DNA from: Hyphomicrobiales bacterium
GTDB lineage: Bacteria > Pseudomonadota > Alphaproteobacteria > Rhizobiales > Beijerinckiaceae
DNA length: 64,000 bases
Assembly (NCBI GenBank): GCA_026400535.1
Contig: JAPLOU010000052.1
Span: forward strand, 118,715 to 182,714
Direction: 5' to 3'
Shown here one piece after another: positions 40,158 to 40,466 of this stretch. The translations under genes were made by a program, and so were the position numbers. A model generated the notes under the pieces. That model did not search any database and was not told the DNA's origin. It saw only the letters and a list, made by a program, of their open reading frames with translations. Each line of letters opens with the position of its first letter. Position 1 is the first letter of the stretch.

Positions 40158-40466
40158 TCAGATCGCATCCGCCCCCGTCTCGCCGGTGCGGATGCGGATC
40201 GCTTCCTCCACCGTAGATACAAATATCTTGCCATCTCCGATCCGGCCCGTCTGGGCCGCGGATTTGATCGCCAGCACGATCTCGATTTTCACCTTGGGCA
40301 GGAAATCAACGACGTATTCCGCACCGCGGTAAAGTTCGGTGTGGCCCTTCTGGCGGCCAAAGCCCTTGGCTTCGATCACGGTGATGCCCTGCAGGCCGAT
40401 GTCCTGCAAGGCTTCCTTCACCTCGTCCAGCTTGAACGGCTTGATGATCGCTTCAATCTTTTTCAT
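40158..40466 (-). CDS. glnB: Nitrogen regulatory protein PII with an internal deletion
   Basis: PII signal protein that reads 2-oxoglutarate, ATP/ADP and glutamine and controls GlnA, GlnD/E and NtrB. Most of the chain is near-perfect Gln[21 protein letters not shown], the T-loop [15 protein letters not shown] with the uridylylation Tyr51, and the ATP motif [10 protein letters not shown]. It is only 102 residues long instead of 112. After KIEIVLA the sequence goes straight to IKSAAQTG, so about ten residues that normally form most of helix 2 are missing, with the frame kept. The start is the normal one. The deletion may affect trimer folding. It lies upstream of glnA. Confidence 0.93.

Follow-up and report, generated by a model that had tools for sequence, protein, structure and literature searches.

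A 30-base in-frame gap within helix 2 of glnB in a single alphaproteobacterial genome assembly, and its probable consequence for the PII protein

The glnB locus and its missing codons

The window (the whole stretch of DNA that was analysed, 64,000 nucleotides in length) carries a gene for the PII protein GlnB on its minus strand, with the glutamine synthetase gene glnA next to it on the same strand, as is characteristic of GlnB; in many alphaproteobacteria glnB and glnA form one operon. The features of the locus are as follows.

38648..40057, minus strand: glnA, glutamine synthetase, 100 bases downstream of glnB
40132..40272, minus strand: 141 bases identical to the start of contig C242 of a congener (G041), which starts exactly at the joint
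40158..40466, minus strand: glnB lacking 10 codons of helix 2, a 102-codon frame (Pfam P-II, 91.9 bits)
40272..40273, minus strand: joint of the 30-base deletion, at which 29 full-length relatives, set side by side, have 30 extra bases
40748..41170, plus strand: 140-codon frame divergent from glnB, with no Pfam match and with similar DNA in the stretches of four relatives
41430..42143, minus strand: transposase fragment near glnB (Pfam rve), with diverged copies elsewhere in the genome

The divergent 140-codon frame presumably encodes a membrane protein, while the transposase fragment, which we take to be IS30-like, lies in an element remnant (41423-42143) of which several diverged copies occur in the source genome. 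In G041, contig C23 (L147, first 350 bases) resumes beyond the missing glnB region and starts in a transposase-like piece, presumably of IS256 type, so that the region preceding glnB may be insertion-prone.

A reading of this DNA from its sequence only had described a clean in-frame gap in helix 2, a product of 102 residues, retention of the uridylylation tyrosine and of the ATP motif, and a position upstream of glnA, and each of these points was borne out. The frame (40466..40158, minus strand) contains no frameshift and lacks exactly 30 bases, corresponding to 10 residues of helix 2. When the product is aligned with full-length GlnB from other bacteria (29 proteins), its sole gap comprises 10 columns after residue 65, the placement being ambiguous by one residue either way (Ala66). 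As helix 2 spans residues 67-81 in the full-length control (a Bosea protein, L038), approximately residues 67-75, i.e. some 9 of its 15 residues, are absent. The product retains the start of GlnB, the T-loop, the B-loop (TGRIGDGK) and the C-terminus; Y51 and I76, G77, D78, G79 and K80 occupy invariant columns of alignment A1 and lie in the T-loop and B-loop, respectively, and we take their roles to be those of the uridylylation tyrosine (Y51) and the nucleotide-binding B-loop (I76-K80).

Homology to PII is evident from the Pfam P-II score (PF00543, 91.9 bits against a cut-off of 25). With the NCBIfam model PRK10858 the 102-residue protein scored 146.3 bits against a cut-off of 202, although a full-length relative (174.7 bits) likewise fell below that cut-off. 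The best solved match is the PII protein of H. seropedicae (1hwu), and the protein is a GlnB in sequence, in the T-loop with Tyr51, in the TGRIGDGK motif, in its C-terminus and in its glnA neighbour, differing from a typical GlnB in the 10 residues of helix 2 that the source genome lacks.

Across the remaining 102 codons, comparison with the three closest full-length genes (L005-L007) identified 20-23 synonymous differences and one non-synonymous difference, Asp22/Glu. Asp22 is also present in G033 (L010) and therefore need not be a change of the source lineage. By this measure the rest of the gene is strongly constrained, and normal constraint has acted on glnB up to recent times, if not to the present.

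Spacing in relatives and further PII genes

The genus search covered 67 genomes including the source genome, and 64 of the 66 others could be scored; the exceptions were G041, in which a contig begins at the joint, and G042, which gave a GlnK-type match only. Full spacing was observed in all 64 scorable genomes, 63 of which span 336 nt as against 306 nt in the source genome, while the match in G066 covers 294 nt for query residues 1-88 and is again 10 codons longer. Of the 248 genomes in the family search, 223 gave a match at E<=1e-40; all 149 non-source matches among the 150 listed are 336 nt long, some of them being genus genomes counted again. Furthermore, the best 80 of 580 relatives were all recovered as 336-nt matches, and a motif check on these 80 confirmed the spacing in 75, plus 4 of the 5 remaining. 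A 10-residue gap was found in none of the 64 scorable congeners or 149 listed family matches, and a clade-wide feature was ruled out, as no scorable relative in the genus or among the listed family matches carries the gap. Among the relatives examined, the deletion is seen in the source assembly alone. Full-length GlnB at the same locus in close relatives, together with raw data giving the deletion no support, had been named in the sequence-only reading as what would speak against it; the relatives are indeed full length at the locus, which is one half of that pair.

Apparent glnB-glnA fusions in G070, G147 and G269 were rejected, since their long open frames stop at the glnB stop. In G066 (L125, G066:C1:180000-184000) the end of glnB is out of frame and continues into glnA; the resulting frame of 674 codons looks like a GlnB-GlnA fusion and may stem either from a true frameshift or from an error in sequencing.

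Two further PF00543 proteins are encoded in the source genome, one GlnK-like and one distant. The existence of a second PII gene, suggested earlier as a check, was confirmed by the former, a protein of 112 aa (G000:C7:21425-21760; NCBIfam PRK10665, 175.4 bits against a cut-off of 181), whose gene overlaps a frame that we presume to be amtB. This protein belongs to the PII family and the same pathway as GlnB, but is full length and stands beside the amtB-like frame. GlnD (above its cut-off) and GlnE are also present. A second full-length glnB was sought in the 93.66% complete assembly, and the search returned only the GlnK-like protein and the distant relative. The gene of the latter (L124, G000:C47:8000-27999, local 10250-10574) lies directly after a 343-codon membrane-protein frame, which in our estimation resembles the bicarbonate transporter SbtA, and the two are possibly an SbtA-SbtB pair.

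Predicted fold of the shortened protein

AlphaFold2 was applied to monomers only, using for both proteins alignments that contain the same 29 relatives (30 rows, and shallow). The 102-residue GlnB gave a mean pLDDT of 46.7 and a pTM of 0.36, while the full-length control reached 77.8 and 0.66. Comparison with the PDB yielded, among the 50 matches listed in each case, TM-scores by query length of 0.37-0.50 with rmsd values of 10.9-14.7 for the 102-residue model and of 0.67-0.71 with rmsd values of 2.5-7.6 for the control model. The strands that the control forms at 2-8, 58-65 and 91-95 are missing from the 102-residue model, in which a helix is drawn at 60-72, and the beta-alpha-beta-beta-alpha-beta fold with helix 2 was not recovered in it. 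These models suggest that the deletion would ruin the PII fold, although AlphaFold2 confidence at 30 rows is only a proxy and the control itself is modest (77.8). PII proteins are homotrimers that bind ATP and 2-oxoglutarate, and it had been proposed earlier that either the PII structure tolerates the gap or a normal trimer is no longer formed. Tolerance gains no support here, as the predicted fold collapses while the full-length control folds, and loss of the normal trimer becomes the likelier alternative, as judged from a monomer prediction.

Among solved structures, GlnZ delta42-54 (5ovo) is likewise a shortened PII, with 99 residues in the chain; its deletion (residues 42-54) lies outside helix 2, and we assume that the residues removed are those of the T-loop. 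Matches to 39 of 41 solved sequences extend over at least 10 residues beyond the query, the exceptions being 5ovo, with its deletion outside helix 2, and 9p1x_H (6 more residues). A search of the literature for deleted or truncated PII proteins found nothing to the point, which is no proof of absence.

The joint and the readings of the gap

The run of 141 bases is by far the longest identity between G041:C242 (11.3 kb) and the window, the next being 80 bases, and a search of the G041 bin yielded no upstream half of glnB. In the source genome, contigs C5 and C86 each open with a piece, exactly 141 bases long, of a copy of the element found near glnB. As described in PMC10914622, contigs from a de Bruijn assembler that meet where graph paths branch share an end stretch as long as the largest k, which is 141 in a MEGAHIT list used in that paper. 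The start of G041:C242 is what a graph built with k=141 would give if the deleted sequence and an undeleted one met there at a branch; this is the simplest account, and it would place the joint in the reads, as the pattern suggests. An exact run of 141 does, however, need chance (a rough estimate of 5-10%, given a run of at least 141). Two further ends of G041 contigs that fall within the window carry end runs of only 85 and 38 identical bases, and G041:C25 stops 123 rather than 141 bases into the element, so that a single contig speaks for a k of 141 in G041.

In addition, the window's stop-to-stop frames, which include spurious ones, were compared with 11 stretches of eight genomes. A gap of equal size and place in at least two relatives was observed for glnB and the frames overlapping it only; the glnB gap appeared against 7 of 8 stretches, and in the remaining one the G041 contig is cut. 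Gaps of at least 3 residues in other frames (e.g. 10 and 6 residues in frame 30843-33002, and 5 and 3 residues in frame 34808-36874) vary in size and place between relatives, which weakens general assembly decay as an explanation.

A true glnB of full length, from which 30 bases were lost through an assembly or library artefact at a hard-to-assemble stretch shared between strains, is the most serious competitor of a real deletion, albeit an unlikely one. It is favoured by the restriction of the gap to one draft genome (100 contigs, 93.66% complete), with no scorable relative sharing it, and by the coincidence to the base of the joint with the start of a G041 contig whose upstream glnB half was not found, a pattern indicating that assemblies break at the joint. 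The same two facts tell against a real deletion, as a gap in one genome only, with a joint that meets the contig boundary of a relative, may also reflect difficulties in assembling this spot, and oddities from a single draft genome need reads. Conversely, the joint has no long shared overlap that a graph assembler could use, no sign of scaffolding was seen (the window is free of N, and two contigs of the source genome have ends of the k=141 type), and a meeting of deleted and undeleted sequences in the G041 graph would account for the start of its contig. A graph contig should moreover contain only joints found in k-mers of the reads, which also counts against an artefact. The break in G041 bears equally on a strain polymorphism, in which the population, and possibly the relative G041 too, carries both a full-length and a deleted glnB, and one allele was assembled: C242 begins exactly where the two alleles would merge. 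Since upstream glnB was not found in G041, neither state is visible there, and as the 141-base run is likely to equal k, sharing with the source genome alone would suffice; we regard a polymorphism as very improbable.

Only slightly less improbable is a short PII that still functions, whether as a trimer that forms with what is left of helix 2 or by joining GlnK in mixed trimers, possibly under altered control. The retained frame, T-loop, B-loop and C-terminal residues are in keeping with it, as are the strongly constrained remainder of the gene and a Pfam score that still reaches 91.9 bits. However, the predicted fold collapses, no counterpart occurs among the 149 listed family matches or the best 80 of 580 loci, and all but two of the 41 solved sequences match over at least 10 residues beyond the query. 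A working PII in the specific form of a two-turn helix leading from strand 3 to strand 4, or of a subunit active only in mixed trimers with GlnK, is the least probable of all, and no support was found for a new working PII architecture. With regard to the origin of the gap, imprecise excision of an insertion sequence was considered, given the transposase pieces near glnB in both the source genome and G041, and no element end was seen at the joint. Slippage between GGCG repeats cannot be shown, as it needs a lost stretch that began as in many congeners and the nearest relatives differ there.

A real and recent 30-base in-frame deletion, with GlnB disabled and its loss tolerated since GlnK, GlnD and GlnE remain, is the explanation that we consider probable. 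The recent loss of these bases from glnB in one alphaproteobacterial species would have removed most of helix 2, and the shortened protein, to judge from its model, would probably be unable to fold into a PII trimer, leaving the GlnB copy lost or badly impaired. With GlnD and GlnE also present, the intact GlnK could take over PII duties, and it is because these proteins remain that the cell would be able to live with an impaired GlnB. Because the frame is kept, translation would run on to the regular stop codon, which may protect the downstream glnA from polar effects; a deletion that shifted the frame could exert such effects on glnA, given the presumed glnB-glnA operon. Loss of function, recency, compensation, the argument from polarity and the presence of the joint in the reads are what we infer from these observations.

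PII proteins are among the most conserved signal proteins, and a live gene without helix 2 would test what the fold needs; if a 102-residue PII does work, most of helix 2 would be dispensable. Most likely, one of two PII copies has been lost here in nature, which would make the locus a useful example of GlnK replacing GlnB.
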